Shown piece by piece: positions 36,424 to 57,675 of a DNA stretch of 64,000 nucleotides. Positions within the stretch are counted from its first letter, which is position 1. Every line of letters begins with the position of its first letter. A program made the translations under genes and the position numbers. Origin of the DNA: Pelodictyon luteolum DSM 273 (lineage in GTDB: Bacteria > Bacteroidota > Chlorobiia > Chlorobiales > Chlorobiaceae); NCBI RefSeq assembly GCF_000012485.1, contig NC_007512.1:745001-809000 (forward strand), read 5' to 3'. The notes beneath the pieces are model-generated. The model was not told the origin of the DNA, did not search any database, and worked only from the letters and a program-made list of their open reading frames with translations.

Positions 36424-39400
36424 ATGTCTATCACTCTCAATGAAGATTACAGCGCGCTCAGCCTTAGTTTTCTTGTAAGTTTGCTTGGTGATGATTCTAC
36501 CATACTTACGCTGTCAGTGTCCGCCGGCCATCTTATTCTGACCGATGGTGGCGCAAGTCCGGATGTGACGATTGAAGGTAGCGGTACCGATAGTGTTACT
36601 GTTACTGCCAGTTCAAAAGCTGATCTTGCTGACTGGCTCGCTGATATGGTGAATAATAGCTCAATCTATATCACTGCCTTCAATTCTCTGGAGCCTGTTA
36701 CGCTTGACTATGTTATTGATAATGGGACGAGTGACGATATCACGGGCACTGAGCAGCTTGTGTTTACTCCTGTTAATGACCCGGCATGCCTTGACATGAA
36801 CGGTTCCGATGAGGTCGGCTGCACATATGTCACGAAGTGGATTGTTGGCTCAGTAGATCCGATTTCCATTCTTGATAAAGATTGGGTATCGGGAGATCCT
36901 GATGGAGTGAGCATGATTACAAGCGCCATCATTACCTTGAGTGGGCGGTTGGATGTGATTGCTTCTGAGTTTCTGTCGACGTCATTGGAGGGTGCTACGA
37001 CGTATGAGGGTGAGTCAGGAACTATCACGATTTACGGAGACTCGACTAGGAGCATTATCCTTAGCGGGGATGCCAGTCTTGCGGATTATATGGCTGTAAT
37101 CAGCGGCATCGTCTATCAGAATACGTTACCGAATACATCAAAGACTGGGGATAGGGTCGTTACGATTTCAATGACCGATGTGGACGGGATTGCGGCAAAT
37201 TCTTCAGCTATATCGTTACTTACTCCCATTGATGTGACTCTGGTGAATGAGGGTGACCGGATTTTCATTGATACTGGTGACGGGATGGTTGATAGCGGCC
37301 TGACGGTGCTGATGGTAAAGGATGCAACCCATGTCATAGCTTCAGGTGAGTTGCCGATATTTGATAGCGCGTTTGCTGATGGTCATTATTTTCTCAATTT
37401 TCTTGCGCCGACTGCCGATCCCGATGCCGAAGAGTGGAGCACTGATGAGTTAGAAGGTGTACCGACTGTGCTCACTACGACCATTGTCGTTGCAAAAGTG
37501 CCAATTGTTGACCTTAATGGAGCGGCAGTCGGATCTGATGGCACGCTTGCGTATCTCGAAGGCGACTCATCTGCGTTCATAGCGCCCGTAGGTACTATTA
37601 CGAGTCTCGAGGCAACCATGGCGTCTCTGGTTATAACATTATCCGGAGTATTGGATGATGCTCATGAGAGCTTGTCTTTTACCGGCACTCTTCCTACCGG
37701 GGTTACTTCTTCAGTCTCGTCTTCTGATGGTACGTATGTTCTGACTCTCTCCGGGTCAAAGGCCATTGCGGACTACCAGGCGCTTCTCCGGACAATTATC
37801 TATACCAATACATCTGAAAGCCCTGATGTAACGGATGTCAGAACAATTACTGTTTATGCCACCAATACTGGTGGTGTTGAAGGTATTTCTCAGGAGGTAG
37901 CTGTAACTGTTGCTGGTGTCAATGATGCTCCAGTCATCACTCCGGTTGTCGTTACTGGAACGGTGGTTGAGGATGTGGTTTTTTCTGCAAGCGGGTCAAT
38001 GACCTATGCGGATGTTGATGTGAACACTGACACGATGACTGTTACGATTTCTGAGTCGACAGTGACATCGTTCGATCAAGAATTGACAGCCGAACAGATA
38101 GCTGCCATCAAGAGTGCTTTTTCAATTGTTCCAGAGAGCGGTACCACGGGGGTCACTCCAGCCGGCAGTGTCTCCTGGACCTATGTTGTAGGTGCTCATG
38201 AGCTTGATTTCCTTGCCTATAATGTAACAGTGGCCGCTGTGTTTACGATTTCTGTGGACGACGGCCATGGAGGGATCGACGCCCAGAGTGTTACAATCTC
38301 AATTACGGGTACCGATGATGCTCCGGTGATTACTGTGGCTGAGGGTGATGCATCAATAGGCATCGTATCGGAGGACGTTGCTGTAGTTGTCGATAATCCG
38401 AATACGGTTGATGTAGAAAACGGCGGATATATTGTGGCAAGCGGGATGCTTTCATACAGTGATGCTGATGCTGCCGACGAACTGAGCATCGTGTCTTACG
38501 CGCAGCAGGGTGGTGCCACCTCCAGTGAGGGTGTTGTTGTCACATCGGCGCTTGCAGTAGCCCTGTCCTCTGCTCTTGTGGTGGGTTCGATTTCCGGGAA
38601 TAGCGGTGACTTTGACTGGAGCTTCGCCCTAGATAATTCCCTCGTACAGTACCTCGGCGCAGGGGATTCTGTGACAGTCAACTATCTGATTACGATTGCC
38701 GACAACAGTGGCGCTGCTGATAACGCAGCTCAGCTCCTTAGCATTACTGTCAACGGGACTAATGATACGCCGGTGATTAGCTTTGCTTTGGGCAATGATG
38801 CCGGAGCTGTTGCCGAGGATGGTGCTGAAAGCCTTACCGCTGGTGGGACTGTCTCCTTTTCTGAAGTTGATGCGTATGACGAATTGTCATCCAGCGTCGA
38901 CTTGACTTCAATCGAGTGGAGTGCTACAGATGCTGGCGGTGCGCATATCCCGTTGCCGGATTCTTTCGCCACTGCACTTGAAGGTGCAATGTCGATTGTA
39001 CAGAGCGGAATAAATGATGGATCAATTGGATGGAACTTTGAGTTAGAGAACAATCTGACGCAGTTCCTGGCAAAGGATGAGGTCGTAACAGCCGTGTTCA
39101 CCATCACGGTGGATGACGCCAAGGGTGGCACAGACACCCAGGACGTGACCATCACGCTGACAGGCTCCAACGACGCACCGGTAATCACGGTGGGTGAAGA
39201 CGGGAGCATAGCTGACTTACTCACTGAAGCTGACGGCGCACTGAAAGCCGATGGTACGCTGAGTGTCGAGGATCTCGACACCACCAACTCGGTTGCAGTG
39301 AGCGTAGACTCGGTAGCTGCCTCTCAGCTAGACGGTTCCGGTGTAGCCATGGCCAGAGACAGCAGTGAACCGGCCAGTGCAGACTTGCTTGCAATGCTGA

Positions 39401-42400
39401 CGGCCACAGCGGACCCGATTGACGGCACAGTAACGACCGGGGATATTGCCTGGGCATTCAACAGCGGTAGCGAAGCCTTCAACTACCTTGCAGCCGGAGA
39501 GAAACTGGTGTTGACCTACACGCTGACAGCCAGCGATGGAACAGCCAGCGACGACCAGACTGTGACGATAACGATCACTGGCACGAACGACATTCCAAGT
39601 GTTGACGTGACGGATGTTAAGCCCATTTTGGAGTCCACTGATGCCCATGCACAGGTTCTTGCGGATAGCGGTACAGTGACCTTCAATGATATTGATAGCA
39701 CTGACCTGATAGACGTCACATGTGCCTATAATGAAGATATTGTATGGAGCGGAGGTACAATCAATGGAGCTCTTGCAGTTGCACTTGTTGACGGGTTCAG
39801 TGTCGATACCGGAGACAATCTCGAAGCTCCGGGGAACACAGCTTGGAATTATAGTGTAGCTGGTGTTGATCTTGACTTCCTTTCCGAGGGGGAGACAATC
39901 ACTTTTAGTTATACAGTGACGGCAACGGATACACAAAGTGCAAGCAGCACCGACACCGTAGAAATCACGATCAGCGGCACGAACGATGTGCCGGTGGTAA
40001 CCAACGAAGCAGAAGCGCTTGCAGGAGAAGTCGTTGAAGCCGGTAACCTGGATGACGGAGAAGTAAGCGCCGGTACGGTAAGTGCTACAGGAACGCTGAG
40101 CTCGAGTGATGTTGATGCCAGTGCCACCGCCACCTGGAGCCTGCTGGGCACCCCGAGTACCACATACGGCACAATGGCCATCGACAGCGCCAGCGGCTTC
40201 TGGACCTACAGCCTGGACAACAGCCTTGAGGCAACGAAGGCACTGGATGAAGGCGAGAGTGCAACCCAGACCTACACCGCCCGGGTCACGGACGACAAGG
40301 GAGCCTATGTTGACCAGACCATCACGATCACGATCAGCGGCACGAACGATGTGCCGGTGGTAACCAACGAAGCAGAAGCGCTTGCAGGAGAAGTCGTTGA
40401 AGCCGGTAACCTGGATGACGGAGAAGTAAGCGCCGGTACGGTAAGTGCTACAGGAACGCTGAGCTCGAGTGATGTTGATGCCAGTGCCACCGCCACCTGG
40501 AGCCTGCTGGGCACCCCGAGTACCACATACGGCACAATGGCCATCGACAGCGCCAGCGGCTTCTGGACCTACAGCCTGGACAACAGCCTTGAGGCAACGA
40601 AGGCACTGGATGAAGGCGAGAGTGCAACCCAGACCTACACCGCCCGGGTCACGGACGACAAGGGAGCCTATGTTGACCAGACCATCACGATCACGATCAG
40701 CGGCACGAACGATGTGCCGGTGGTAACCAACGAAGCAGAAGCGCTTGCAGGAGAAGTCGTTGAAGCCGGTAACCTGGATGACGGAGAAGTAAGCGCCGGT
40801 ACGGTAAGTGCTACAGGAACGCTGAGCTCGAGTGATGTTGATGCCAGTGCCACCGCCACCTGGAGCCTGCTGGGCACCCCGAGTACCACATACGGCACAA
40901 TGGCCATCGACAGCGCCAGCGGCTTCTGGACCTACAGCCTGGACAACAGCCTTGAGGCAACGAAGGCACTGGATGAAGGCGAGAGTGCAACCCAGACCTA
41001 CACCGCCCGGGTCACGGACGACAAGGGAGCCTATGTTGACCAGACCATCACGATCACGATCAGCGGCACGAACGATGTGCCGGTGGTAACCAACGAAGCA
41101 GAAGCGCTTGCAGGAGAAGTCGTTGAAGCCGGTAACCTGGATGACGGAGAAGTAAGCGCCGGTACGGTAAGTGCTACAGGAACGCTGAGCTCGAGTGATG
41201 TTGATGCCAGTGCCACCGCCACCTGGAGCCTGCTGGGCACCCCGAGTACCACATACGGCACAATGGCCATCGACAGCGCCAGCGGCTTCTGGACCTACAG
41301 CCTGGACAACAGCCTTGAGGCAACGAAGGCACTGGATGAAGGCGAGAGTGCAACCCAGACCTACACCGCCCGGGTCACGGACGACAAGGGAGCCTATGTT
41401 GACCAGACCATCACGATCACGATCAGCGGCACGAACGATGTGCCGGTGGTAACCAACGAAGCAGAAGCGCTTGCAGGAGAAGTCGTTGAAGCCGGTAACC
41501 TGGATGACGGAGAAGTAAGCGCCGGTACGGTAAGTGCTACAGGAACGCTGAGCTCGAGTGATGTTGATGCCAGTGCCACCGCCACCTGGAGCCTGCTGGG
41601 CACCCCGAGTACCACATACGGCACAATGGCCATCGACAGCGCCAGCGGCTTCTGGACCTACAGCCTGGACAACAGCCTTGAGGCAACGAAGGCACTGGAT
41701 GAAGGCGAGAGTGCAACCCAGACCTACACCGCCCGGGTCACGGACGACAAGGGAGCCTATGTTGACCAGACCATCACGATCACGATCAGCGGCACGAACG
41801 ATGTGCCGGTGGTAACCAACGAAGCAGAAGCGCTTGCAGGAGAAGTCGTTGAAGCCGGTAACCTGGATGACGGAGAAGTAAGCGCCGGTACGGTAAGTGC
41901 TACAGGAACGCTGAGCTCGAGTGATGTTGATGCCAGTGCCACCGCCACCTGGAGCCTGCTGGGCACCCCGAGTACCACATACGGCACAATGGCCATCGAC
42001 AGCGCCAGCGGCTTCTGGACCTACAGCCTGGACAACAGCCTTGAGGCAACGAAGGCACTGGATGAAGGCGAGAGTGCAACCCAGACCTACACCGCCCGGG
42101 TCACGGACGACAAGGGAGCCTATGTTGACCAGACCATCACGATCACGATCAGCGGCACGAACGATGTGCCGGTGGTAACCAACGAAGCAGAAGCGCTTGC
42201 AGGAGAAGTCGTTGAAGCCGGTAACCTGGATGACGGAGAAGTAAGCGCCGGTACGGTAAGTGCTACAGGAACGCTGAGCTCGAGTGATGTTGATGCCAGT
42301 GCCACCGCCACCTGGAGCCTGCTGGGCACCCCGAGTACCACATACGGCACAATGGCCATCGACAGCGCCAGCGGCTTCTGGACCTACAGCCTGGACAACA

Positions 42401-45400
42401 GCCTTGAGGCAACGAAGGCACTGGATGAAGGCGAGAGTGCAACCCAGACCTACACCGCCCGGGTCACGGACGACAAGGGAGCCTATGTTGACCAGACCAT
42501 CACGATCACGATCAGCGGCACGAACGATGTGCCGGTGGTAACCAACGAAGCAGAAGCGCTTGCAGGAGAAGTCGTTGAAGCCGGTAACCTGGATGACGGA
42601 GAAGTAAGCGCCGGTACGGTAAGTGCTACAGGAACGCTGAGCTCGAGTGATGTTGATGCCAGTGCCACCGCCACCTGGAGCCTGCTGGGCACCCCGAGTA
42701 CCACATACGGCACAATGGCCATCGACAGCGCCAGCGGCTTCTGGACCTACAGCCTGGACAACAGCCTTGAGGCAACGAAGGCACTGGATGAAGGCGAGAG
42801 TGCAACCCAGACCTACACCGCCCGGGTCACGGACGACAAGGGAGCCTATGTTGACCAGACCATCACGATCACGATCAGCGGCACGAACGATGTGCCGGTG
42901 GTAACCAACGAAGCAGAAGCGCTTGCAGGAGAAGTCGTTGAAGCCGGTAACCTGGATGACGGAGAAGTAAGCGCCGGTACGGTAAGTGCTACAGGAACGC
43001 TGAGCTCGAGTGATGTTGATGCCAGTGCCACCGCCACCTGGAGCCTGCTGGGCACCCCGAGTACCACATACGGCACAATGGCCATCGACAGCGCCAGCGG
43101 CTTCTGGACCTACAGCCTGGACAACAGCCTTGAGGCAACGAAGGCACTGGATGAAGGCGAGAGTGCAACCCAGACCTACACCGCCCGGGTCACGGACGAC
43201 AAGGGAGCCTATGTTGACCAGACCATCACGATCACGATCAGCGGCACGAACGATGTGCCGGTGGTAACCAACGAAGCAGAAGCGCTTGCAGGAGAAGTCG
43301 TTGAAGCCGGTAACCTGGATGACGGAGAAGTAAGCGCCGGTACGGTAAGTGCTACAGGAACGCTGAGCTCGAGTGATGTTGATGCCAGTGCCACCGCCAC
43401 CTGGAGCCTGCTGGGCACCCCGAGTACCACATACGGCACAATGGCCATCGACAGCGCCAGCGGCTTCTGGACCTACAGCCTGGACAACAGCCTTGAGGCA
43501 ACGAAGGCACTGGATGAAGGCGAGAGTGCAACCCAGACCTACACCGCCCGGGTCACGGACGACAAGGGAGCCTATGTTGACCAGACCATCACGATCACGA
43601 TCAGCGGCACGAACGATGTGCCGGTGGTAACCAACGAAGCAGAAGCGCTTGCAGGAGAAGTCGTTGAAGCCGGTAACCTGGATGACGGAGAAGTAAGCGC
43701 CGGTACGGTAAGTGCTACAGGAACGCTGAGCTCGAGTGATGTTGATGCCAGTGCCACCGCCACCTGGAGCCTGCTGGGCACCCCGAGTACCACATACGGC
43801 ACAATGGCCATCGACAGCGCCAGCGGCTTCTGGACCTACAGCCTGGACAACAGCCTTGAGGCAACGAAGGCACTGGATGAAGGCGAGAGTGCAACCCAGA
43901 CCTACACCGCCCGGGTCACGGACGACAAGGGAGCCTATGTTGACCAGACCATCACGATCACGATCAGCGGCACGAACGATGTGCCGGTGGTAACCAACGA
44001 AGCAGAAGCGCTTGCAGGAGAAGTCGTTGAAGCCGGTAACCTGGATGACGGAGAAGTAAGCGCCGGTACGGTAAGTGCTACAGGAACGCTGAGCTCGAGT
44101 GATGTTGATGCCAGTGCCACCGCCACCTGGAGCCTGCTGGGCACCCCGAGTACCACATACGGCACAATGGCCATCGACAGCGCCAGCGGCTTCTGGACCT
44201 ACAGCCTGGACAACAGCCTTGAGGCAACGAAGGCACTGGATGAAGGCGAGAGTGCAACCCAGACCTACACCGCCCGGGTCACGGACGACAAGGGAGCCTA
44301 TGTTGACCAGACCATCACGATCACGATCAGCGGCACGAACGATGTGCCGGTGGTAACCAACGAAGCAGAAGCGCTTGCAGGAGAAGTCGTTGAAGCCGGT
44401 AACCTGGATGACGGAGAAGTAAGCGCCGGTACGGTAAGTGCTACAGGAACGCTGAGCTCGAGTGATGTTGATGCCAGTGCCACCGCCACCTGGAGCCTGC
44501 TGGGCACCCCGAGTACCACATACGGCACAATGGCCATCGACAGCGCCAGCGGCTTCTGGACCTACAGCCTGGACAACAGCCTTGAGGCAACGAAGGCACT
44601 GGATGAAGGCGAGAGTGCAACCCAGACCTACACCGCCCGGGTCACGGACGACAAGGGAGCCTATGTTGACCAGACCATCACGATCACGATCAGCGGCACG
44701 AACGATGTGCCGGTGGTAACCAACGAAGCAGAAGCGCTTGCAGGAGAAGTCGTTGAAGCCGGTAACCTGGATGACGGAGAAGTAAGCGCCGGTACGGTAA
44801 GTGCTACAGGAACGCTGAGCTCGAGTGATGTTGATGCCAGTGCCACCGCCACCTGGAGCCTGCTGGGCACCCCGAGTACCACATACGGCACAATGGCCAT
44901 CGACAGCGCCAGCGGCTTCTGGACCTACAGCCTGGACAACAGCCTTGAGGCAACGAAGGCACTGGATGAAGGCGAGAGTGCAACCCAGACCTACACCGCC
45001 CGGGTCACGGACGACAAGGGAGCCTATGTTGACCAGACCATCACGATCACGATCAGCGGCACGAACGATGTGCCGGTGGTAACCAACGAAGCAGAAGCGC
45101 TTGCAGGAGAAGTCGTTGAAGCCGGTAACCTGGATGACGGAGAAGTAAGCGCCGGTACGGTAAGTGCTACAGGAACGCTGAGCTCGAGTGATGTTGATGC
45201 CAGTGCCACCGCCACCTGGAGCCTGCTGGGCACCCCGAGTACCACATACGGCACAATGGCCATCGACAGCGCCAGCGGCTTCTGGACCTACAGCCTGGAC
45301 AACAGCCTTGAGGCAACGAAGGCACTGGATGAAGGCGAGAGTGCAACCCAGACCTACACCGCCCGGGTCACGGACGACAAGGGAGCCTATGTTGACCAGA

Positions 45401-48400
45401 CCATCACGATCACGATCAGCGGCACGAACGATGTGCCGGTGGTAACCAACGAAGCAGAAGCGCTTGCAGGAGAAGTCGTTGAAGCCGGTAACCTGGATGA
45501 CGGAGAAGTAAGCGCCGGTACGGTAAGTGCTACAGGAACGCTGAGCTCGAGTGATGTTGATGCCAGTGCCACCGCCACCTGGAGCCTGCTGGGCACCCCG
45601 AGTACCACATACGGCACAATGGCCATCGACAGCGCCAGCGGCTTCTGGACCTACAGCCTGGACAACAGCCTTGAGGCAACGAAGGCACTGGATGAAGGCG
45701 AGAGTGCAACCCAGACCTACACCGCCCGGGTCACGGACGACAAGGGAGCCTATGTTGACCAGACCATCACGATCACGATCAGCGGCACGAACGATGTGCC
45801 GGTGGTAACCAACGAAGCAGAAGCGCTTGCAGGAGAAGTCGTTGAAGCCGGTAACCTGGATGACGGAGAAGTAAGCGCCGGTACGGTAAGTGCTACAGGA
45901 ACGCTGAGCTCGAGTGATGTTGATGCCAGTGCCACCGCCACCTGGAGCCTGCTGGGCACCCCGAGTACCACATACGGCACAATGGCCATCGACAGCGCCA
46001 GCGGCTTCTGGACCTACAGCCTGGACAACAGCCTTGAGGCAACGAAGGCACTGGATGAAGGCGAGAGTGCAACCCAGACCTACACCGCCCGGGTCACGGA
46101 CGACAAGGGAGCCTATGTTGACCAGACCATCACGATCACGATCAGCGGCACGAACGATGTGCCGGTGGTAACCAACGAAGCAGAAGCGCTTGCAGGAGAA
46201 GTCGTTGAAGCCGGTAACCTGGATGACGGAGAAGTAAGCGCCGGTACGGTAAGTGCTACAGGAACGCTGAGCTCGAGTGATGTTGATGCCAGTGCCACCG
46301 CCACCTGGAGCCTGCTGGGCACCCCGAGTACCACATACGGCACAATGGCCATCGACAGCGCCAGCGGCTTCTGGACCTACAGCCTGGACAACAGCCTTGA
46401 GGCAACGAAGGCACTGGATGAAGGCGAGAGTGCAACCCAGACCTACACCGCCCGGGTCACGGACGACAAGGGAGCCTATGTTGACCAGACCATCACGATC
46501 ACGATCAGCGGCACGAACGATGTGCCGGTGGTAACCAACGAAGCAGAAGCGCTTGCAGGAGAAGTCGTTGAAGCCGGTAACCTGGATGACGGAGAAGTAA
46601 GCGCCGGTACGGTAAGTGCTACAGGAACGCTGAGCTCGAGTGATGTTGATGCCAGTGCCACCGCCACCTGGAGCCTGCTGGGCACCCCGAGTACCACATA
46701 CGGCACAATGGCCATCGACAGCGCCAGCGGCTTCTGGACCTACAGCCTGGACAACAGCCTTGAGGCAACGAAGGCACTGGATGAAGGCGAGAGTGCAACC
46801 CAGACCTACACCGCCCGGGTCACGGACGACAAGGGAGCCTATGTTGACCAGACCATCACGATCACGATCAGCGGCACGAACGATGTGCCGGTGGTAACCA
46901 ACGAAGCAGAAGCGCTTGCAGGAGAAGTCGTTGAAGCCGGTAACCTGGATGACGGAGAAGTAAGCGCCGGTACGGTAAGTGCTACAGGAACGCTGAGCTC
47001 GAGTGATGTTGATGCCAGTGCCACCGCCACCTGGAGCCTGCTGGGCACCCCGAGTACCACATACGGCACAATGGCCATCGACAGCGCCAGCGGCTTCTGG
47101 ACCTACAGCCTGGACAACAGCCTTGAGGCAACGAAGGCACTGGATGAAGGCGAGAGTGCAACCCAGACCTACACCGCCCGGGTCACGGACGACAAGGGAG
47201 CCTATGTTGACCAGACCATCACGATCACGATCAGCGGCACGAACGATGTGCCGGTGGTAACCAACGAAGCAGAAGCGCTTGCAGGAGAAGTCGTTGAAGC
47301 CGGTAACCTGGATGACGGAGAAGTAAGCGCCGGTACGGTAAGTGCTACAGGAACGCTGAGCTCGAGTGATGTTGATGCCAGTGCCACCGCCACCTGGAGC
47401 CTGCTGGGCACCCCGAGTACCACATACGGCACAATGGCCATCGACAGCGCCAGCGGCTTCTGGACCTACAGCCTGGACAACAGCCTTGAGGCAACGAAGG
47501 CACTGGATGAAGGCGAGAGTGCAACCCAGACCTACACCGCCCGGGTCACGGACGACAAGGGAGCCTATGTTGACCAGACCATCACGATCACGATCAGCGG
47601 CACGAACGATGTGCCGGTGGTAACCAACGAAGCAGAAGCGCTTGCAGGAGAAGTCGTTGAAGCCGGTAACCTGGATGACGGAGAAGTAAGCGCCGGTACG
47701 GTAAGTGCTACAGGAACGCTGAGCTCGAGTGATGTTGATGCCAGTGCCACCGCCACCTGGAGCCTGCTGGGCACCCCGAGTACCACATACGGCACAATGG
47801 CCATCGACAGCGCCAGCGGCTTCTGGACCTACAGCCTGGACAACAGCCTTGAGGCAACGAAGGCACTGGATGAAGGCGAGAGTGCAACCCAGACCTACAC
47901 CGCCCGGGTCACGGACGACAAGGGAGCCTATGTTGACCAGACCATCACGATCACGATCAGCGGCACGAACGATGTGCCGGTGGTAACCAACGAAGCAGAA
48001 GCGCTTGCAGGAGAAGTCGTTGAAGCCGGTAACCTGGATGACGGAGAAGTAAGCGCCGGTACGGTAAGTGCTACAGGAACGCTGAGCTCGAGTGATGTTG
48101 ATGCCAGTGCCACCGCCACCTGGAGCCTGCTGGGCACCCCGAGTACCACATACGGCACAATGGCCATCGACAGCGCCAGCGGCTTCTGGACCTACAGCCT
48201 GGACAACAGCCTTGAGGCAACGAAGGCACTGGATGAAGGCGAGAGTGCAACCCAGACCTACACCGCCCGGGTCACGGACGACAAGGGAGCCTATGTTGAC
48301 CAGACCATCACGATCACGATCAGCGGCACGAACGATGTGCCGGTGGTAACCAACGAAGCAGAAGCGCTTGCAGGAGAAGTCGTTGAAGCCGGTAACCTGG

Positions 48401-50409
48401 ATGACGGAGAAGTAAGCGCCGGTACGGTAAGTGCTACAGGAACGCTGAGCTCGAGTGATGTTGATGCCAGTGCCACCGCCACCTGGAGCCTGCTGGGCAC
48501 CCCGAGTACCACATACGGCACAATGGCCATCGACAGCGCCAGCGGCTTCTGGACCTACAGCCTGGACAACAGCCTTGAGGCAACGAAGGCACTGGATGAA
48601 GGCGAGAGTGCAACCCAGACCTACACCGCCCGGGTCACGGACGACAAGGGAGCCTATGTTGACCAGACCATCACGATCACGATCAGCGGCACGAACGATG
48701 TGCCGGTGGTAACCAACGAAGCAGAAGCGCTTGCAGGAGAAGTCGTTGAAGCCGGTAACCTGGATGACGGAGAAGTAAGCGCCGGTACGGTAAGTGCTAC
48801 AGGAACGCTGAGCTCGAGTGATGTTGATGCCAGTGCCACCGCCACCTGGAGCCTGCTGGGCACCCCGAGTACCACATACGGCACAATGGCCATCGACAGC
48901 GCCAGCGGCTTCTGGACCTACAGCCTGGACAACAGCCTTGAGGCAACGAAGGCACTGGATGAAGGCGAGAGTGCAACCCAGACCTACACCGCCCGGGTCA
49001 CGGACGACAAGGGAGCCTATGTTGACCAGACCATCACGATCACGATCAGCGGCACGAACGATGTGCCGGTGGTAACCAACGAAGCAGAAGCGCTTGCAGG
49101 AGAAGTCGTTGAAGCCGGTAACCTGGATGACGGAGAAGTAAGCGCCGGTACGGTAAGTGCTACAGGAACGCTGAGCTCGAGTGATGTTGATGCCAGTGCC
49201 ACCGCCACCTGGAGCCTGCTGGGCACCCCGAGTACCACATACGGCACAATGGCCATCGACAGCGCCAGCGGCTTCTGGACCTACAGCCTGGACAACAGCC
49301 TTGAGGCAACGAAGGCACTGGATGAAGGCGAGAGTGCAACCCAGACCTACACCGCCCGGGTCACGGACGACAAGGGAGCCTATGTTGACCAGACCATCAC
49401 GATCACGATCAGCGGCACACTGGATAGGTATACGCCGACAACCCATGTGACATTCTGGAAGGATAATACCGCTGATGACGGTTATAACCCTCTCGCACTT
49501 GAGGGCGTCACGACCGGTTATGTGCCTGATGTCACTTCCAGTACTGAGGACACTATCGAGTTCAGGGACATGTCCGTTGCACTCAATGACGCTGGCGCCT
49601 ATAGGGACTATACCATGGATGTGTGGAAGGCAAACAAGGTTGAGGATGTCAACACGTTTACGCTGAAATTCGATCTCCCCACAGGTACGACCTATGAATG
49701 GGACGCAGCGGATGTGTTTACTACTGGATGGAACATCTCTGAATACCAGAATGATCAGACGGTAACCATCGTCGGGTATTCATTGACTGAAACAATCGAC
49801 GACGCTGCTGTTCAGTTGGGCACGCTGACATTCAGTGGCAACCTCAACACCGATACCCTCAACCTTACAGGCGGGGTGCTCACTGCGGTTAATCTAACCG
49901 ACTTTAGTGAAGACAGTACAGCAACAGGCACGATTGTGCTGGATCCTGTGATGACGGATACTGATGCCACTGGTGCAGACGCGTTGGAAGCAGCAATTGA
50001 CCAGGGTGGGTACAGCTTGTTGTCCTCTGCGAGTATCGCAATTGCAGATGGTACGGTATCGAACATCGACATGGTGATTGCGGCGATGATTGTGGCTGCC
50101 GATGACAGTGCTGAAGACTCAAATCTTATTGGCAACTACACTCTCGCGCAGTTGTATGCGGCAGATGTTGACCACAGCGGTACGGTTGATGCAACAGATG
50201 TTGCATTGATCGGGCAGATGTCTGCTGGCGTGACGGAGGCTCCGGCCAATGAGTGGATTTTCGTGGCGGCTGATGTTGCTGATGATGCCGCTACGGGTAC
50301 AAGCGTTGACTGGACTAAAACCCTTACCGAGATTGATCTGCAGAGTAATGCAACGGTCGAGCTGGTCGGTATCGTCAAGGGTGATGTGAACGGCAGCTGG
50401 GTAGGTTAA
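36424..50409 (+). CDS. Giant VCBS-repeat surface protein (4,661 aa), type I secretion substrate
   Basis: No signal peptide, a very acidic, Asp/Thr/Ser-rich composition and near-absence of Cys, as in type I secreted adhesins. N-terminal ~500 residues: cadherin/Ig-like blocks with no close repeat. Residues ~510-1180: about five divergent VCBS-type repeats, each ending in a phrase like TITLTGSNDAPVI. Residues ~1181-4331: 26 identical 121-residue VCBS repeats (each contains GTNDVPVV, TYGTMAIDSASGFWTYSLDN and ARVTDDKGAYVDQTITITIS). C-terminal ~330 residues: a unique domain, then a dockerin/EF-hand-like calcium loop (ADVDHSGTVDATDVALIGQM) and a second GDVNG loop near the end. A dual-ABC type I exporter follows. 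Likely a cell-surface adhesin or structural filament; the function is not proven. Confidence 0.9.
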   Translation: MSITLNEDYSALSLSFLVSLLGDDSTILTLSVSAGHLILTDGGASPDVTIEGSGTDSVTVTASSKADLADWLADMVNNSSIYITAFNSLEPVTLDYVIDNGTSDDITGTEQLVFTPVNDPACLDMNGSDEVGCTYVTKWIVGSVDPISILDKDWVSGDPDGVSMITSAIITLSGRLDVIASEFLSTSLEGATTYEGESGTITIYGDSTRSIILSGDASLADYMAVISGIVYQNTLPNTSKTGDRVVTISMTDVDGIAANSSAISLLTPIDVTLVNEGDRIFIDTGDGMVDSGLTVLMVKDATHVIASGELPIFDSAFADGHYFLNFLAPTADPDAEEWSTDELEGVPTVLTTTIVVAKVPIVDLNGAAVGSDGTLAYLEGDSSAFIAPVGTITSLEATMASLVITLSGVLDDAHESLSFTGTLPTGVTSSVSSSDGTYVLTLSGSKAIADYQALLRTIIYTNTSESPDVTDVRTITVYATNTGGVEGISQEVAVTVAGVNDAPVITPVVVTGTVVEDVVFSASGSMTYADVDVNTDTMTVTISESTVTSFDQELTAEQIAAIKSAFSIVPESGTTGVTPAGSVSWTYVVGAHELDFLAYNVTVAAVFTISVDDGHGGIDAQSVTISITGTDDAPVITVAEGDASIGIVSEDVAVVVDNPNTVDVENGGYIVASGMLSYSDADAADELSIVSYAQQGGATSSEGVVVTSALAVALSSALVVGSISGNSGDFDWSFALDNSLVQYLGAGDSVTVNYLITIADNSGAADNAAQLLSITVNGTNDTPVISFALGNDAGAVAEDGAESLTAGGTVSFSEVDAYDELSSSVDLTSIEWSATDAGGAHIPLPDSFATALEGAMSIVQSGINDGSIGWNFELENNLTQFLAKDEVVTAVFTITVDDAKGGTDTQDVTITLTGSNDAPVITVGEDGSIADLLTEADGALKADGTLSVEDLDTTNSVAVSVDSVAASQLDGSGVAMARDSSEPASADLLAMLTATADPIDGTVTTGDIAWAFNSGSEAFNYLAAGEKLVLTYTLTASDGTASDDQTVTITITGTNDIPSVDVTDVKPILESTDAHAQVLADSGTVTFNDIDSTDLIDVTCAYNEDIVWSGGTINGALAVALVDGFSVDTGDNLEAPGNTAWNYSVAGVDLDFLSEGETITFSYTVTATDTQSASSTDTVEITISGTNDVPVVTNEAEALAGEVVEAGNLDDGEVSAGTVSATGTLSSSDVDASATATWSLLGTPSTTYGTMAIDSASGFWTYSLDNSLEATKALDEGESATQTYTARVTDDKGAYVDQTITITISGTNDVPVVTNEAEALAGEVVEAGNLDDGEVSAGTVSATGTLSSSDVDASATATWSLLGTPSTTYGTMAIDSASGFWTYSLDNSLEATKALDEGESATQTYTARVTDDKGAYVDQTITITISGTNDVPVVTNEAEALAGEVVEAGNLDDGEVSAGTVSATGTLSSSDVDASATATWSLLGTPSTTYGTMAIDSASGFWTYSLDNSLEATKALDEGESATQTYTARVTDDKGAYVDQTITITISGTNDVPVVTNEAEALAGEVVEAGNLDDGEVSAGTVSATGTLSSSDVDASATATWSLLGTPSTTYGTMAIDSASGFWTYSLDNSLEATKALDEGESATQTYTARVTDDKGAYVDQTITITISGTNDVPVVTNEAEALAGEVVEAGNLDDGEVSAGTVSATGTLSSSDVDASATATWSLLGTPSTTYGTMAIDSASGFWTYSLDNSLEATKALDEGESATQTYTARVTDDKGAYVDQTITITISGTNDVPVVTNEAEALAGEVVEAGNLDDGEVSAGTVSATGTLSSSDVDASATATWSLLGTPSTTYGTMAIDSASGFWTYSLDNSLEATKALDEGESATQTYTARVTDDKGAYVDQTITITISGTNDVPVVTNEAEALAGEVVEAGNLDDGEVSAGTVSATGTLSSSDVDASATATWSLLGTPSTTYGTMAIDSASGFWTYSLDNSLEATKALDEGESATQTYTARVTDDKGAYVDQTITITISGTNDVPVVTNEAEALAGEVVEAGNLDDGEVSAGTVSATGTLSSSDVDASATATWSLLGTPSTTYGTMAIDSASGFWTYSLDNSLEATKALDEGESATQTYTARVTDDKGAYVDQTITITISGTNDVPVVTNEAEALAGEVVEAGNLDDGEVSAGTVSATGTLSSSDVDASATATWSLLGTPSTTYGTMAIDSASGFWTYSLDNSLEATKALDEGESATQTYTARVTDDKGAYVDQTITITISGTNDVPVVTNEAEALAGEVVEAGNLDDGEVSAGTVSATGTLSSSDVDASATATWSLLGTPSTTYGTMAIDSASGFWTYSLDNSLEATKALDEGESATQTYTARVTDDKGAYVDQTITITISGTNDVPVVTNEAEALAGEVVEAGNLDDGEVSAGTVSATGTLSSSDVDASATATWSLLGTPSTTYGTMAIDSASGFWTYSLDNSLEATKALDEGESATQTYTARVTDDKGAYVDQTITITISGTNDVPVVTNEAEALAGEVVEAGNLDDGEVSAGTVSATGTLSSSDVDASATATWSLLGTPSTTYGTMAIDSASGFWTYSLDNSLEATKALDEGESATQTYTARVTDDKGAYVDQTITITISGTNDVPVVTNEAEALAGEVVEAGNLDDGEVSAGTVSATGTLSSSDVDASATATWSLLGTPSTTYGTMAIDSASGFWTYSLDNSLEATKALDEGESATQTYTARVTDDKGAYVDQTITITISGTNDVPVVTNEAEALAGEVVEAGNLDDGEVSAGTVSATGTLSSSDVDASATATWSLLGTPSTTYGTMAIDSASGFWTYSLDNSLEATKALDEGESATQTYTARVTDDKGAYVDQTITITISGTNDVPVVTNEAEALAGEVVEAGNLDDGEVSAGTVSATGTLSSSDVDASATATWSLLGTPSTTYGTMAIDSASGFWTYSLDNSLEATKALDEGESATQTYTARVTDDKGAYVDQTITITISGTNDVPVVTNEAEALAGEVVEAGNLDDGEVSAGTVSATGTLSSSDVDASATATWSLLGTPSTTYGTMAIDSASGFWTYSLDNSLEATKALDEGESATQTYTARVTDDKGAYVDQTITITISGTNDVPVVTNEAEALAGEVVEAGNLDDGEVSAGTVSATGTLSSSDVDASATATWSLLGTPSTTYGTMAIDSASGFWTYSLDNSLEATKALDEGESATQTYTARVTDDKGAYVDQTITITISGTNDVPVVTNEAEALAGEVVEAGNLDDGEVSAGTVSATGTLSSSDVDASATATWSLLGTPSTTYGTMAIDSASGFWTYSLDNSLEATKALDEGESATQTYTARVTDDKGAYVDQTITITISGTNDVPVVTNEAEALAGEVVEAGNLDDGEVSAGTVSATGTLSSSDVDASATATWSLLGTPSTTYGTMAIDSASGFWTYSLDNSLEATKALDEGESATQTYTARVTDDKGAYVDQTITITISGTNDVPVVTNEAEALAGEVVEAGNLDDGEVSAGTVSATGTLSSSDVDASATATWSLLGTPSTTYGTMAIDSASGFWTYSLDNSLEATKALDEGESATQTYTARVTDDKGAYVDQTITITISGTNDVPVVTNEAEALAGEVVEAGNLDDGEVSAGTVSATGTLSSSDVDASATATWSLLGTPSTTYGTMAIDSASGFWTYSLDNSLEATKALDEGESATQTYTARVTDDKGAYVDQTITITISGTNDVPVVTNEAEALAGEVVEAGNLDDGEVSAGTVSATGTLSSSDVDASATATWSLLGTPSTTYGTMAIDSASGFWTYSLDNSLEATKALDEGESATQTYTARVTDDKGAYVDQTITITISGTNDVPVVTNEAEALAGEVVEAGNLDDGEVSAGTVSATGTLSSSDVDASATATWSLLGTPSTTYGTMAIDSASGFWTYSLDNSLEATKALDEGESATQTYTARVTDDKGAYVDQTITITISGTNDVPVVTNEAEALAGEVVEAGNLDDGEVSAGTVSATGTLSSSDVDASATATWSLLGTPSTTYGTMAIDSASGFWTYSLDNSLEATKALDEGESATQTYTARVTDDKGAYVDQTITITISGTNDVPVVTNEAEALAGEVVEAGNLDDGEVSAGTVSATGTLSSSDVDASATATWSLLGTPSTTYGTMAIDSASGFWTYSLDNSLEATKALDEGESATQTYTARVTDDKGAYVDQTITITISGTNDVPVVTNEAEALAGEVVEAGNLDDGEVSAGTVSATGTLSSSDVDASATATWSLLGTPSTTYGTMAIDSASGFWTYSLDNSLEATKALDEGESATQTYTARVTDDKGAYVDQTITITISGTLDRYTPTTHVTFWKDNTADDGYNPLALEGVTTGYVPDVTSSTEDTIEFRDMSVALNDAGAYRDYTMDVWKANKVEDVNTFTLKFDLPTGTTYEWDAADVFTTGWNISEYQNDQTVTIVGYSLTETIDDAAVQLGTLTFSGNLNTDTLNLTGGVLTAVNLTDFSEDSTATGTIVLDPVMTDTDATGADALEAAIDQGGYSLLSSASIAIADGTVSNIDMVIAAMIVAADDSAEDSNLIGNYTLAQLYAADVDHSGTVDATDVALIGQMSAGVTEAPANEWIFVAADVADDAATGTSVDWTKTLTEIDLQSNATVELVGIVKGDVNGSWVG
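39964..49418 (+). repeat. 26 identical tandem 363-bp repeats
   Basis: 9,455 bases made of a 363-base unit (121 codons) repeated 26 times without visible substitution. Landmarks recur at exact 363-base steps, for example from 40106 to 49181 (25 steps), and every frame gives identical peptides in all copies. The first copy joins divergent sequence at 39964 and the last diverges after 49418. Because unit length is a multiple of three, copy number can change without breaking the frame. Confidence 0.97.
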
Positions 50410-50565: not shown

Positions 50566-50823
50566 ATGAAAAAACAAGTGGAAATGTGTCTTGGAGACCA
50601 AATCCGCAGTGAGCGGTATCGGAAAAATCTTTCGCAGTTAAGCCTCTCGCAACAATGCGGTCTGCATAGGTCCTATATCGGGTTGATTGAAAGAGGTGAA
50701 AAAAACATCACTGTTATCAACTGTATGAAAGTCGCGAATGCGTTGGGGATTTCATTATCTGAACTGATTGCAAGGGTGGAATCGTCACTGATTTCACGGG
50801 ACTGTTTAGCCGAAGTGTCATGA
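50566..50823 (+). CDS. Small XRE-family regulator (controller-protein-like)
   Basis: 85 residues, ATG at 50566 with an AAGGAG box 4-9 bases upstream. Almost the whole protein is an XRE HTH: LGDQIRSERYRKNLSQLSLS, then HRSYIGLIERGEKNITVINC and VANALGISLSELI. Size and motif are like those of restriction-modification C proteins and related dimeric repressors. First gene after the giant protein gene and upstream of the secretion genes, so it may control this transcript. Related regulators are at 34175, 58620 and 60748. Confidence 0.82.
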   Translation: MKKQVEMCLGDQIRSERYRKNLSQLSLSQQCGLHRSYIGLIERGEKNITVINCMKVANALGISLSELIARVESSLISRDCLAEVS

Positions 50824-50896: not shown

Positions 50897-51679
50897 ATGA
50901 GAACCGCATTCATTGGTTCAGGCATGATGGATTATGCTTGGATAGATGCGTTCGGATTTTCGCGCTCCTTTGCACGTCTCGGTCAAAGGACTCTTTTGGT
51001 ATGGCTTGTTGATGAGGAACCACCGTTGCAGTATGCAGTGCATGATGGTGGAGATGGGTTGGGGAAAAAGGGATTTCCCTTTGGGCTGCAGTCGGATGAG
51101 GATGTGCAGGACGCCATCAGGCCCTGCACAGAACCGAATCTTGATGTTATGTGGTTCAGGAAGAGACCAGCCCAGCTTGATATGGCGCTTTCCTGCATGC
51201 ATGATATGTCCTCATTCCTGAGTGATAAACTCAACGCTGTGTCTGATGGGTATGTGCATGTGATTCTAGCGGGCTATGAAGAACAATACAGGCATTTGAG
51301 CATAAGCATGCTTATGGCTGCTGACTCACTGGTCCTGTCCGTTGATGTAGCACAGTATTCGCTTGATGACATCGTCCGATTGCTCGTGAATATCGGCACG
51401 GTTAGCTACCAGTCGAAACAAAGACTCAGTGTTGAGGCAGTGTGCCTCCGCGGCTACGATGCAAGACTGCAGAGCAGTCAGCTGGTGCGCAATGAATTGA
51501 TGATGATTTTCAATGCCAAAGTGCTTGACAGTGCATTGCCCTCTATGCGTCATTCCTCACCACCGTCTTCGGTATGGGTCACGAACGGTAATGAGCTCGC
51601 GTATCAACGACTGGCCAATGAGATTTCACCCCGGATGAGTCGAACTGCATCTGCAATAAAACGAAGACAGCGGGCGTAA
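50897..51679 (+). CDS. ParA/MinD-like protein without a P-loop
   Basis: 260 residues. The C-terminal half resembles ParA/Soj ATPases: ADSLVLSVDVAQYSLDDIVR, LSVEAVCLRGYDARLQSSQL and the terminal NELAYQRLANEI. At the N-terminus, however, the position of the KGGVGKT P-loop reads FIGSGMMDYAWIDAFGFS, with no Walker lysine and no GKT/GKS. It may therefore bind no nucleotide and act as a scaffold or localiser. It sits between the small XRE regulator and the ABC exporter genes, so a role in placing the secretion complex is reasonable but inferred. Alternative: a decayed ParA. Confidence 0.6.
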   Translation: MRTAFIGSGMMDYAWIDAFGFSRSFARLGQRTLLVWLVDEEPPLQYAVHDGGDGLGKKGFPFGLQSDEDVQDAIRPCTEPNLDVMWFRKRPAQLDMALSCMHDMSSFLSDKLNAVSDGYVHVILAGYEEQYRHLSISMLMAADSLVLSVDVAQYSLDDIVRLLVNIGTVSYQSKQRLSVEAVCLRGYDARLQSSQLVRNELMMIFNAKVLDSALPSMRHSSPPSSVWVTNGNELAYQRLANEISPRMSRTASAIKRRQRA

Positions 51680-51733: not shown

Positions 51734-53452
51734 ATGATAAAACTGACTGAACAAGATGTGATGAAGGAGCTGAAGGCGGCGCTGACGCCGTATGTGTTGC
51801 GTTCCTTCCTCATCAGTATCGTTACCAGTCTCCTGGTGCTGACCCCGAGCCTCTATATGCTTGAAGTGTACGGGCGGGTTCTCAACAGCCGGAGCTATAT
51901 GACGCTTTTGATGCTGACGGTGCTGGTCATCGGGTTGTATATGTTGCTGGAGGTACTCGAATGGGTCCGGTCTGTCCATATGCAGGAGGGGGCAGCCGAA
52001 CTTGATGTTTCGCTTCGAAAACGGGTGTTTTCCGCTGTGTTCGATGCAAGGTTGCGAAGAACTCCCGCTGGCTCGATACAGGCATTCAATGACGTAAAGA
52101 TCATCCGCGATATTCTCCCCTCTGTTGCATTTCTCTCACTCCTTGACGCCCCCCTCGCACTCATTACACTTGTGCTGCTCTTTATCATCAATCCGCTTAT
52201 CGGCTGGTTTGCTGTTGGCGGTTTTATTCTGCAGCTCCTTATCGCCGTTCTCAATGAGCAGAGTACTCACGAAGATTTGAGTGAGGCCTCGCGCAATGCA
52301 ATGGCATCGCGTCAGTATGCTGACGGAGCCGTCAGAAACGCGCAGGTCATTGAGTCCATGGCCATGTTTCAGGGTATCCATGACCGCTGGCATTCGATCC
52401 ATCAGGATTTTTTGCGCCAGCAGGCAGTTGCTTCCGATCATGCCTCTTCATACAGCGTGCTTTCAAAGATGGTGCAGATGGTGGTGGGCGCACTGCTTCT
52501 CGGGGTCGGCGGCTGGCTGGCCATTCACGGCTATATCAGCGGCGGGCTTGTGATTGTGGGCTCGATACTCGGCACGCGCGTCCTTGCTCCTCTGGTACAG
52601 CTTATTTCCGGCTGGCGCTCTCTGGAGGCCGGCAATACTTCGTTGCATCGTCTTGCATCCCTGCTTGCGGAATTTCCTGAAAGGGTTCCTTCGATGCCTC
52701 TTCCGGCACCCGGAGGGCGGCTTAGCGTCGATGGCCTTGTTGCTGCGCCTCCGGGATGGAGTGTTCCGTTGATCAAGGGGATCAGCTTTCTGGTTCCTGA
52801 GGGCGGATCCCTTGCCATCGTCGGCCCGACAGCTGTCGGCAAGAGTACACTCTTGCGGATACTTGTCGGGGTACAGTCTTTTCTGCAGGGGAGCGTCAGG
52901 CTAGACGGTGTTGATCTTCATGCATGGAACAAAGATGAACTCGGGCCGTATGTCGGCTACCTGCCGCAGGAAGTCGAACTGTTTGAGGGAACACTCGGCG
53001 AAAACATCGCACGCTTTGGCGATATGGATCGGGAAAAGCTGTCGGAAGCCTGCCGCAGGGTTGGGCTTGTTTCGATGATCGAAGAACTGCCGGATGGGTT
53101 CGATACCCAGATCGGGCCTGACGGGCTGTTTCTTTCCGGTGGGGTCCGTCAGCGGGTCGGCCTTGCCAGAGCAATCTATGGTTCCCCCCGGTTCGTTGTG
53201 CTTGACGAGCCGGATTCCAGCCTTGATGGCGCAGGAGATATGTTTCTTGCAAAGCTCATTGCACAACTGAGTATGGAGGAGGTGACGCTTGTTGTCGTCT
53301 CTCAAAGGAAAAGCATCATTGACCAGATGGACCGGGTGATGATCATGGATCGCGGCATGGTAAAGATGATTTCGCCGCACGCTGATGCAGAGGCGGTTCC
53401 GGGAACGGGTGTACCCGGTCCCGGGCAGGTAGATAAGGGGGTAACATCATGA
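51734..53452 (+). CDS. Type I secretion ABC transporter 1 (degenerate ATP site)
   Basis: 572 residues of the PrtD-like type I permease/ATPase family. N-terminal six-helix membrane domain (~20-300; [20 protein letters not shown]), no C39 peptidase domain. ATPase domain from ~330: Walker [11 protein letters not shown]-loop [11 protein letters not shown], signature [14 protein letters not shown] (V replaces the usual Q), Walker [11 protein letters not shown]. The H-loop reads [10 protein letters not shown] where ITHR is normal, so the switch histidine is missing. The stop overlaps the start of the second transporter (ATGA). Together they look like a heterodimer with one weak ATP site. Confidence 0.88.
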
Positions 53453-55140
53453 AGTGGACCGATATTGAACAATTTCGTGTCGGCAAGGTTCTCCTGATGC
53501 TGAAGAAGGAGTTTCTCTGGGTCGGGGTATTCAGTCTTGTTGCCAATGTCCTGATGTTGACTCCGACGCTCTACATGCTGCAGATCTACGACAGGGTGAT
53601 GAAAAGCGGGAGTGAACTGACGCTTTTCGTCCTGACCGGTATCGTTCTTTTCCTTTTTGCGGTTATGGGTATTGCCGAGTGGCTTCGTTCACGACTGCTG
53701 GTGCGCATCGGAGTCCGGCTTGATGAAGAACTCAACTCACTGTTGTTCCATGCGGGCTTTTCGGCGTTTCTGCGCAACGAGTCCCATAATACAGTGCAGA
53801 TGTTCAATGATTTGACCAACATCCGGCAGTTTCTCACCGGGGTTGGCGTAATCGCTTTCTTTGACATGCCATGGACACCGGTCTATATCCTGGTCATGTT
53901 CATGCTTCACCCCGTTCTCGGACTCATCGGGCTCGTCTTTGCCGCGGTACAGGTCATGAGTGCATGGAAGAAGCGTTCGGCGCTTGCCGAGCGGATAGAA
54001 GGCGCTTCAGACGCGCATGTCAATGCAACCGGGTATGTCCAGGGTAAACTGGGTAATATCGATGCAGTCTACGCAATGGGTATGCTTGAACCGCTTCGGG
54101 AGCGTTGGCTTGTACGCCATGAAGCATCCGTGCTTGCGGCGGAGGAGTTCCAGAAACTGCAGCAGCGGGAGCAGTCGTATGCCAAATTCACCCGTTATCT
54201 CATGCAGTCCTTTACCCTGGCGGCCGGTGCTGTTCTCGTGCTTCGCGGTGAGGCGAGTTCCGGCGTCATGATTGCCGGCAATGTGTTGATGGCCAGGGCC
54301 CTTGCGCCGCTTGACATGATGGTGTCGACGGCCAAACAGTATGCCCAGGCATTTGACGGATTTCGCCGCATCGAGACCCTTCTCGACGGATTTGCAGTCC
54401 CGGAGCAGACATTGCAGTCCCAGGACTTGAGAGGTGTGGTCCGTATTGACGGACTTGTGGCAACAGCCCGTCAGGGAACTGTACCGATCCTTAATGCAAT
54501 CACCGCGGAATTCCGGCCCGGAGAAATTGTGGCGATTCTCGGCCCGAGCGGATCGGGAAAGTCCACCCTTGCCCGATGCTGCATCGGGGTCTGGCCGGAA
54601 TCTAACGGCAATGTGCTTATCGACGGGATTCCTGTCGGAGAGTGGGACCGGTCGATTCTCGGTCCACATATCGGGTACCTCCCGCAGGATGTAGAGCTCT
54701 TCGAAGGGAGCGTTGCTGAAAATATTGCACGCTTCGGAGAAGTGGATCCGGAAAAGGTCGTTGCGGCAGCGACAAAGGCCGGTATTCATGACATGGTCCT
54801 TTCATTTTCCAAAGGCTATGATACCGCAATCAGTTTCGGCGGAAAGGAGCTATCAGGGGGCCAGCGCCAACGCCTTGCCTTCGCCCGAGCCCTCTATGAC
54901 AACGCATCGATTCTGGTGCTTGATGAACCTGACGCAAATCTCGATGAAGCGGGTGAAGGAAGCCTCAAGCGTGCGCTCAGAAAGGCTGCCGACGAGGGCA
55001 GGACAGTCTGTGTCATAACCCATCGTCCAGGCGTGGTCGCTCTGGCTGACCGTGTCATGGTAATGAGCGCTGGGCGGATATTGCATGATGGCAGCCGCGA
55101 TGATGTGTCTCGGGAATTGATGAAGAGTAAATCGAAATAA
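53449..55140 (+). CDS. Type I secretion ABC transporter 2 (canonical ATP site)
   Basis: 563 residues, same family as the preceding gene, with which it overlaps by 4 bases. Membrane domain ~20-300 ([40 protein letters not shown]). ATPase motifs are complete: Walker [11 protein letters not shown]-loop [11 protein letters not shown], signature [14 protein letters not shown], Walker [14 protein letters not shown]-loop VCVITHRPG. It would pair with transporter 1 and drive export of the giant repeat protein across both membranes with the adaptor and TolC-type channel downstream. Confidence 0.92.
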
Positions 55141-55160
55141 ACGCAGGAGAGTTCACCCTC

Positions 55161-56342
55161 ATGAAGAACAAAGAGAATATTCGGCCGGTGACCGGCGAAG
55201 ACATAACGGAACGGAAACGGAAAGCGTTCGAGCGCTTCAAGTATAGCGGCAATGTCATCCGCCTTGGAGTGATTGTCCTTCTGATAGGATTCGGCGGGTT
55301 CCTGCTCTGGTCGGCACTTGCTCCGCTTGATGAGGGCGTGCCGTGCAACGGTTCGGTTACCGTATCGACGAAAAGCAAGGTGGTAGAGCATCTCCACGGT
55401 GGTATCGTACAGGCGGTCCATGTCCATGAAGGAGAAATGGTGGATGAGGGTGCGCTGCTGCTTACCCTTACCGATGAAGACGCGCTTGCCCGGTATCGTG
55501 AGGTGTATGAACGCTATCTTGTTCTTCGGGCCACAGAGGGCCGGCTTGATGCTGAAGAGCGGGGTGCCGGGCGGATTATATTCCACAGGGATGTCGTCGG
55601 TTCACCCGACGTGCAGCTTGCGGCATCCATCATGGAGAACCAGCGGGCATTGTTTGCTGCCCGAGTTGATGTGGTTCATGCATTGCGTCAGCGTCTGATT
55701 GGTGTCAAGGCTATGGTGGCTGACGGGTATATGACCATGTACCAGCAGCTGGAACTTGAAGAACGGCTTGCCGACCTGGACTCCCAGCGTGCCTCGGAGC
55801 GGGCGGATATCCAGATGCAGGTGGATGCTTTCGCAAAAAAGACTCTGGCGATGCGAGATGAGCTGAAGCGCAGAGAGCTTCGCTCACCGGCTTCCGGTCA
55901 GGTGGTCGGCCTGAAGGTGCAGACGGTCGGCGCCGTCATTACTCCGGGGGAGACGGTTATGGAGATTGTACCGCTCGATGAATCCCTGATGCTCGAGGTC
56001 CATGTTGATCCACAGCTTATTGACCGCATCTCGACAGGTCTTCCTGCCGATGTGCGTTTTTACAGCTTTGCCCATTCTCCAATGATGATGGTTGATGGCG
56101 TTGTGGAGTCGGTTTCTCACGATCTGCTGTTCGATCAGTCACGCGATCCGCGTATGCCTGGAGCCTCATACTACCTAGCCCGCATTTCTCTTACCCGCGA
56201 AGGGATGCAGTCGCTGGGAACCCATCGTCTTCAGGCAGGAATGCCGGTTCAGGTGGTCATCAAAACGGGTGAACGCTCGCTTCTTACCTATCTGCTGCAT
56301 CCACTGATGCAGCGGATGTCGGCATCGCTTAAGGAGGAGTGA
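55161..56342 (+). CDS. HlyD-family membrane fusion protein of type I secretion
   Basis: 393 residues. A single N-terminal membrane helix ([20 protein letters not shown]), a biotinyl-lipoyl-like motif ([20 protein letters not shown]), a periplasmic helical hairpin (~residues 100-240) and a C-terminal beta domain ([20 protein letters not shown], then [20 protein letters not shown]), ending in the HlyD-type PLxxRMxxSLKEE. It bridges the ABC transporters to the outer-membrane channel. An AGGAGA box precedes the ATG, 20 bases after the previous stop. Confidence 0.93.
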
Positions 56343-56343
56343 G

Positions 56344-57675
56344 ATGATGAGAGCCCGAACTGTAATCATGATGCTTTTCCTGCTGCCGGTGATGAACGAT
56401 GCAGAGGGGAGCGGACGGCAGCTGGACCTGCGGCAGGCATGGACGATGGCATCTTCCTACGATGCGCGCTATCGTGTAGCTCAAGCTGATTACCAGATGC
56501 AGCGGAAGGAGGTCCCAAAAGCCTTATCAGGCTACCTGCCTAACATATATGTTCAGGCCTCTAGGGGCAGGCGGGGTACTATCAGGGAGTTGACGGACCC
56601 TAATGACCGCAAGTTCTATTCGTCGAAATCATATGGAGTGTATCTCAGTCAGTCGGTAGTTGATATTCAGACCATTGCCGCGTATAAAGGTGCTGTTGCT
56701 CTGGAGGGAAAAAGCGCAATGGTTCTGGAGAACGAAAAGGGCAACTTGATGGCCAGAACCATCGAAGCCTATTGCAACGCGCTGTTCAGCCAGGAGGCTA
56801 TCTCGGTGAGCCGGTCGCTTGTCGCATTGAGCCAGGAAGAAGTGGCAAGGGCGGTGAAAGCTTCGGAGCAGGGAGTGGGTACCGTTATTGCAATTGATGA
56901 AGCAAGGGCTAAATATGAGGCTTCTCTTGCCGAGGAGCAGAAAGGCCTGAACAGCCATGAGCACAATCTTCGCGAACTCGAGAAACTCACCGGTGTCTAT
57001 GCCGGCAAGCTTGCCCCCCTGTCCCCGGTTCTTGATCAGAAACCCATAGCCCTGAAAACTGAAGATGAGTGGATTGCTGCAGCTCTGAAGATGAGCCCGG
57101 AGATGGGGGCGGTGAAAAAGGATCTTGATATGGCCCGCTGGCAGACGGCAAAGACCAGAGCCGGTGGGTACCCGACGCTTGATCTTGTGGCCTCCTGGAG
57201 TTATTCAGCGAACGATACCGATTACAATCTCAACGAAATCTATGACACCTATGCCGTCAGTCTGCAGCTGAAGGTTCCTATTTATTCAGGTGGATATGTG
57301 ATGTCTTCTGTGAGCCAGTCGAAGATGGGGCAGCTCAAGGCACAGGAAAACTTTAGTTGGAAAGAGCGGCAGATCGTTTCTGATGTCCGCAAGTATTACC
57401 GGGGCCTGCAGTCGTTATCCATGTTGATCAATGCCAATAAACGGACCGTGGATGCCAGGAATACATTGCTGAAAAGCAAACAGAAGGGTCTGTTGTCCGG
57501 AGTCGCTACCAGAATGGATGTGCTTGATGCCCGTCAGCAGTTACGGACGTCTGAACTGGAGCTTTCAAAGAGCCGGTTCCAGTACATCCTTAATCTTGTC
57601 ATGCTGGAAAAGACTGCAGGGATGCTGGGCTCCGATGATATCGTTTGTCTGGCATCGGGGCGAACCTCCCGCTGA
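56344..57675 (+). CDS. TolC-family outer-membrane channel of type I secretion
   Basis: 443 residues. A signal peptide (VIMMLFLLPVMNDAEGSG) is followed by the two OEP repeats: LRQAWTMASSYDARYRVAQA with GYLPNIYVQASRGR, and GAVKKDLDMARWQTAKTRAG with YAVSLQLKVPIYSGGYVMSS, ending in GVATRMDVLDARQQL. A normal length for TolC/PrtF channels. It starts one base after the adaptor's stop codon, so the four secretion genes form one operon. Confidence 0.93.
   Translation: MMRARTVIMMLFLLPVMNDAEGSGRQLDLRQAWTMASSYDARYRVAQADYQMQRKEVPKALSGYLPNIYVQASRGRRGTIRELTDPNDRKFYSSKSYGVYLSQSVVDIQTIAAYKGAVALEGKSAMVLENEKGNLMARTIEAYCNALFSQEAISVSRSLVALSQEEVARAVKASEQGVGTVIAIDEARAKYEASLAEEQKGLNSHEHNLRELEKLTGVYAGKLAPLSPVLDQKPIALKTEDEWIAAALKMSPEMGAVKKDLDMARWQTAKTRAGGYPTLDLVASWSYSANDTDYNLNEIYDTYAVSLQLKVPIYSGGYVMSSVSQSKMGQLKAQENFSWKERQIVSDVRKYYRGLQSLSMLINANKRTVDARNTLLKSKQKGLLSGVATRMDVLDARQQLRTSELELSKSRFQYILNLVMLEKTAGMLGSDDIVCLASGRTSR

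Follow-up and report, generated by a model that had tools for sequence, protein, structure and literature searches.

The stretch of DNA analyzed here (the window, 64,000 nucleotides) corresponds to positions 745001-809000 of the genome of Pelodictyon luteolum DSM 273 (C. luteolum; family Chlorobiaceae), a single contig of 2,364,842 bases that is 99.99% complete. A giant gene on the plus strand (36424-50409) encodes a candidate adhesin of 4661 aa (~475 kDa, pI ~4.05), in which 32 stretches matched the VCBS model TIGR01965 and 28 stretches matched Cadherin_4. The TIGR01965 score was 1607.8 bits against a curated cut-off of 15.5, which identifies the product as a VCBS-repeat protein. From its 5' end, the gene consists of an N-terminal region (36424-37902), five diverged VCBS/cadherin-like domains (37903-39963; starting at 37903, 38296, 38743, 39151, and 39568), 26 identical tandem 363-bp units (39964-49401), a 17-bp partial 27th copy (49402-49418), and a C-terminal module that begins with this partial copy (49402-50406). 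No close ortholog of the N-terminal region was found in 86 Chlorobiaceae genomes, the best non-self match showing 34% identity, and no ligand-binding domain was identified in the giant protein. GC3 was 0.67 in the repeat unit versus mostly 0.36-0.52 in 36424-39963 (~0.6 around 39100-39600), a contrast hinting at a mosaic gene. An origin of the array from a phage or plasmid was dropped, because no relative was found in viral contigs and the plasmid matches were two and distant.

A complete set of type 1 secretion system (T1SS) genes lies downstream of the giant gene on the same strand (51734-57675). It comprises two PrtD-type ABC transporters (51734-53452 and 53449-55140; TIGR01842, 571 and 603 bits, both above the cut-off), an HlyD-type periplasmic adaptor (55161-56342; TIGR01843, above the cut-off), and a TolC-type outer membrane channel (56344-57675; PF02321, E = 3.5e-43; TIGR01844, 223 bits, just below the cut-off of 225). 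Homologs of the second ABC protein were present in 58 of the 86 Chlorobiaceae genomes (E ≤ 1e-60), mostly as a tandem pair, and within its own genome this protein matched just the pair in the window at the same threshold. In several relatives, a large cadherin/VCBS- or RTX-type ORF lies directly upstream of the same T1SS (5484 aa in genome G078, 841 aa in G083, and 526 aa in G013), with some of these ORFs cut by the contig start; many other relatives have no giant ORF at this position. An adhesin/T1SS cluster with a like arrangement and contig breaks is described for Prosthecochloris (PMC7762298). We infer that the giant protein is the substrate of the adjacent T1SS.

Two further plus-strand ORFs separate the giant gene from the T1SS genes. 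The first (50566-50823, 85 aa) is a small HTH (Xre-like) ORF, named from sequence reading alone, which may be a local regulator; the second (50897-51679, 260 aa) encodes a ParA/MinD-like AAA_31 protein (PF13614, E = 1.8e-6) with only distant relatives within the family. The HTH ORF shares the motif YIGxIERGxKNIT with two other small Xre-like ORFs (58620-58925 and 60748-61077). All three lie near the adhesin and gas vesicle genes and, given the common motif, may be related local regulators. Also observed were three gvpA-like gas vesicle genes that are almost identical to one another (60320-60526, 61815-62021, and 62084-62290). A tandem duplication of 269 bp (98% matches) contains two of them, and a degenerate fourth is located near 59751.

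TRF analysis of the array (39964-49418) gave a period of 363, 26.0 copies, 100% matches, and 0 indels. By direct comparison, the 26 full units were one single DNA string, the first and last full copies included, and the exact 363-bp period ran on for 17 bp into the 27th copy, which is the same as the unit start and encodes the start of an ITISGT motif. These results bear out the original prediction of 26 nucleotide-identical 363-bp repeats in one gene. The unit is exactly 121 codons and is in frame within the ORF, so the change in copy number without loss of frame that had also been proposed follows from the period. Copies would be gained or lost in frame, and the length of the stalk encoded by the array is therefore predicted to vary, perhaps between strains or cells as originally suggested. 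Recombination probably can make the stalk longer or shorter, a process already documented in other bacterial adhesins.

Both the copy number of 26 and the perfect identity rest on one assembly, and the accompanying caution that identical arrays assemble poorly was right. The DSM 273 genome was finished in the Sanger era, with the copy number probably settled by finishing rather than by single spanning reads. The identity, and perhaps also the number 26, could be partly a product of assembly or finishing, in which slightly different units were merged to a consensus and copied out. Zero differences even in the edge units would fit such an origin; the giant adhesin MpAFP of Marinomonas primoryensis resisted assembly for the same reason (PMC3492233), and database copy numbers for such repeats are often wrong (PMC7493085). 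However, MpAFP also demonstrates that a fully identical array exists in biology (100% DNA identity except one base; PMC3492233). Furthermore, two adjacent units of a 6686-aa paralog in the same genome, a young pair of its own, keep their differences (99.2% DNA identity), so near-identical neighbors were not always collapsed during assembly. We regard an assembly product as unlikely.

Each unit contains ~92 synonymous sites, and across ~2,400 such sites in the 26 units, 0 differences were found, giving a dS of zero within the array. Chance is excluded as the source of this identity. The nearest other units occur in the 6686-aa paralog (ORF 380629-400689; loci L056 and L191), which is without the C-terminal module of the giant adhesin. 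Its four units were 65-76% identical in protein to the array unit, with a DNA identity of 69-77% and a dS of 0.59-0.99. Ten homologous units in Limnohabitans were 70-93% identical among themselves. The divergence of the Limnohabitans units and the dS values of the paralog indicate that perfect identity belongs to the array and not to the domain family. The five domains just upstream, which had been described as strongly diverged in contrast to the array, were indeed only 27-37% identical among themselves and 36-44% identical to the unit. Within Chlorobiaceae, the closest named relative by unit search was Chlorobium phaeovibrioides BrKhr17; its unit (L057) was rejected as an ortholog and instead corresponds to the paralog unit L056_15815 (90.4% identity, dS 0.19).

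The absence of differences over 26 × ~92 synonymous sites, compared with a dS of 0.6-1.0 to the paralog units, supports the proposal that the array was recently expanded or homogenized. Assuming independence of the copies since one burst and a mutation rate of 5e-10 per site per generation, zero changes at all synonymous sites bound the array age at ≤~6e5 generations at 95%. An old array could also be held identical by continual gene conversion or unequal crossing over, a variant of recent amplification in which timing alone differs. It would likewise give a dS near zero, and the high DNA similarity of Periscope Proteins has been tied to intragenic recombination (PMC8201768). Edge units usually escape homogenization, yet both edge copies are identical here, and homogenization is not seen in related arrays of other genomes; neither observation is decisive. 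Since both edge copies are identical, a burst is slightly favored over steady homogenization, which we consider possible but somewhat doubtful. The third source of synonymous identity considered was selection on the DNA or RNA, for example from an overlapping antisense gene, in place of recent copying. A 3372-aa antisense ORF does run through the array (39328-49446, minus strand), but synonymous sites vary freely among homologous units elsewhere, and one open antisense frame in a single unit explains the ORF, as every in-frame copy is then open. This ORF was rejected as a gene and should not be annotated as one, and selection of this type is highly improbable. Recent amplification, or frequent homogenization by recombination, is the preferred explanation of the array.

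The 121-aa unit is modeled as a VCBS/cadherin-like beta-sandwich. An AlphaFold model of two units had a pLDDT of 91.3, and Foldseek ranked 6XI1 as its best PDB match (E = 2e-14; 33% of aligned columns identical), ahead of cadherins. This entry, a tetra-tandem extender from AhLap, an RTX adhesin of Aeromonas hydrophila, is the closest solved structure to the unit, and a profile built from unit relatives matched it at E = 1.2e-72. In AhLap, three calcium ions between domains stiffen the rod, and nine side-chain ligands of its calcium sites were considered (PMC7493085). Six of these (E37, D160, D162, D220, N128, and D129) align with E25, D49, D51, D110, N7, and D8 of the unit, and across 21 two-unit relatives each of the six positions is either invariant or conserved to at least 90%. 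The other three are replaced in the unit (D38 by A26, Q96 by K91, and E166 by T55). This pattern of aligned residues suggests that the stalk is likely a calcium-stiffened rod. A cadherin-like domain is ~4.5 nm long, and at this length per domain the array by itself would reach about 120 nm. Together with the adjoining type 1 secretion genes, the adhesin-extender fold makes it probable that the product, earlier read as a surface protein, is exposed on the surface or secreted.

The C-terminal module (335 aa) combines a cohesin-like beta-sandwich, a dockerin-like double EF-hand region, and an end reading ...IVKGDVNGSWVG. Matches to it occurred in 21 of 98 Chlorobiales genomes, two of which contained at least 22 apiece. 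Of the retrieved matches extending to the module end, almost all finished 0-5 residues short of a stop codon, and the members at loci L027-L055 are about 300-335 aa long and strictly C-terminal, with a near-invariant GIVKGDVDGSW end. Strong full-length matches were found in Chlorobiaceae alone, and weaker partial matches elsewhere in the phylum sample. Pfam and NCBIfam cover the module poorly. Its sequence profile reaches dockerins, and Dockerin_1 matches were obtained for 28 of 29 members; these were too weak (best E = 3e-4; E = 0.16 for the giant adhesin) for assignment as a plain Pfam dockerin, which was rejected. The AlphaFold model of the module was poor (pLDDT 57), and its first part matched cohesins best, a match that is only a lead. 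These results suggest that the module is likely the secretion/attachment end of the giant proteins. The cohesin-like and dockerin-like parts might even bind between molecules, cross-linking giant stalks, among them the present one with its predicted variable length, via a cellulosome-like, calcium-dependent plug. We view this as a long shot; if true, green sulfur bacteria would have in such an intermolecular plug a novel means of assembling a surface coat or cell-cell contacts.

We compared the array with known systems. MpAFP/MpIBP region II of M. primoryensis is likewise part of a giant adhesin with DNA-identical tandem repeats flanked by diverged copies (PMC3492233). Its repeats of 104 aa (312 bp) number about 120 and have 100% DNA identity, with one base changed in the last copy, and recent expansion by unequal recombination was proposed by its authors (PMC3492233). 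By contrast with the protein studied here, MpAFP has an RTX C-terminal region, a known ice-binding activity, and extenders of another beta-sandwich family (PMC3492233). AhLap has the same extender fold as that predicted for the unit, detectable sequence homology to it, and the six of nine calcium ligands noted above in common; however, its repeats number about 20, are 94-98% identical in the crystallized construct and not DNA-identical, and belong to the RTX adhesin class (PMC7493085). Periscope Proteins carry long arrays of highly identical domains, and recombination alters the number of these domains (PMC8201768, PMC9704523). With 121-aa units at 100% identity, the array falls within the sequence definition of this class (PMC8201768): it is a long array of highly identical domains in a single chain, for which recombination-driven change in number is expected. 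Individual folding of the repeats into a rod is predicted from the AlphaFold model and the 6XI1 match. Periscope Proteins differ in projecting a ligand-binding domain, which was not recognized here, and variation in repeat number is a prediction for the present array.

Two features of RTX adhesins are found at this locus, namely a tandem beta-sandwich extender (from prediction and homology) and type 1 secretion genes. The third, RTX nonapeptide repeats near the C-terminus, was not detected, as Pfam gave no HemolysinCabind match at E ≤ 0.1 in the giant protein; the cohesin/dockerin-like module stands there and presumably takes the place of the RTX repeats. The stalk would work like that of an RTX adhesin, but without these repeats the protein is not classed as one. 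Giant adhesin-like genes are already known from green sulfur bacteria, such as Cag_0614/0616 in Chl. chlorochromatii (PMC4053972); like the Prosthecochloris giants, they encode repetitive surface proteins in the same family, and contigs break at these genes (PMC4053972, PMC7762298). Perfect DNA identity of repeats is not reported in the available parts of these two papers, and no report of the present array in C. luteolum was found in the open-access literature searched.

Taken together, the locus probably encodes a giant type-1-secreted fibrillar adhesin, the stalk array of which was recently amplified or is kept uniform by recombination. A single unit flanked by the 17-bp direct repeat coding for ITISGT would have been duplicated first, and this repeat is a plausible site of that event. 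Unequal or slipped recombination would then have amplified the unit, so recently, or with such frequent homogenization, that no synonymous change is present. The 26 VCBS/cadherin-like domains would together make a stalk, stiffened by calcium and about 100 nm or more in length, that keeps the distal end of the protein at a distance from the cell. The array adds to a known phenomenon, that of Periscope-type and MpAFP-like adhesins, which is itself not new. With 26 units and zero differences, it nonetheless provides a clear and extreme case, from an environmental phototroph, of a phenomenon studied mostly in pathogens. Such genes may be broken or shortened in draft Chlorobiaceae genomes, and this gene offers a tractable locus for the rate of stalk-length change without immune pressure.
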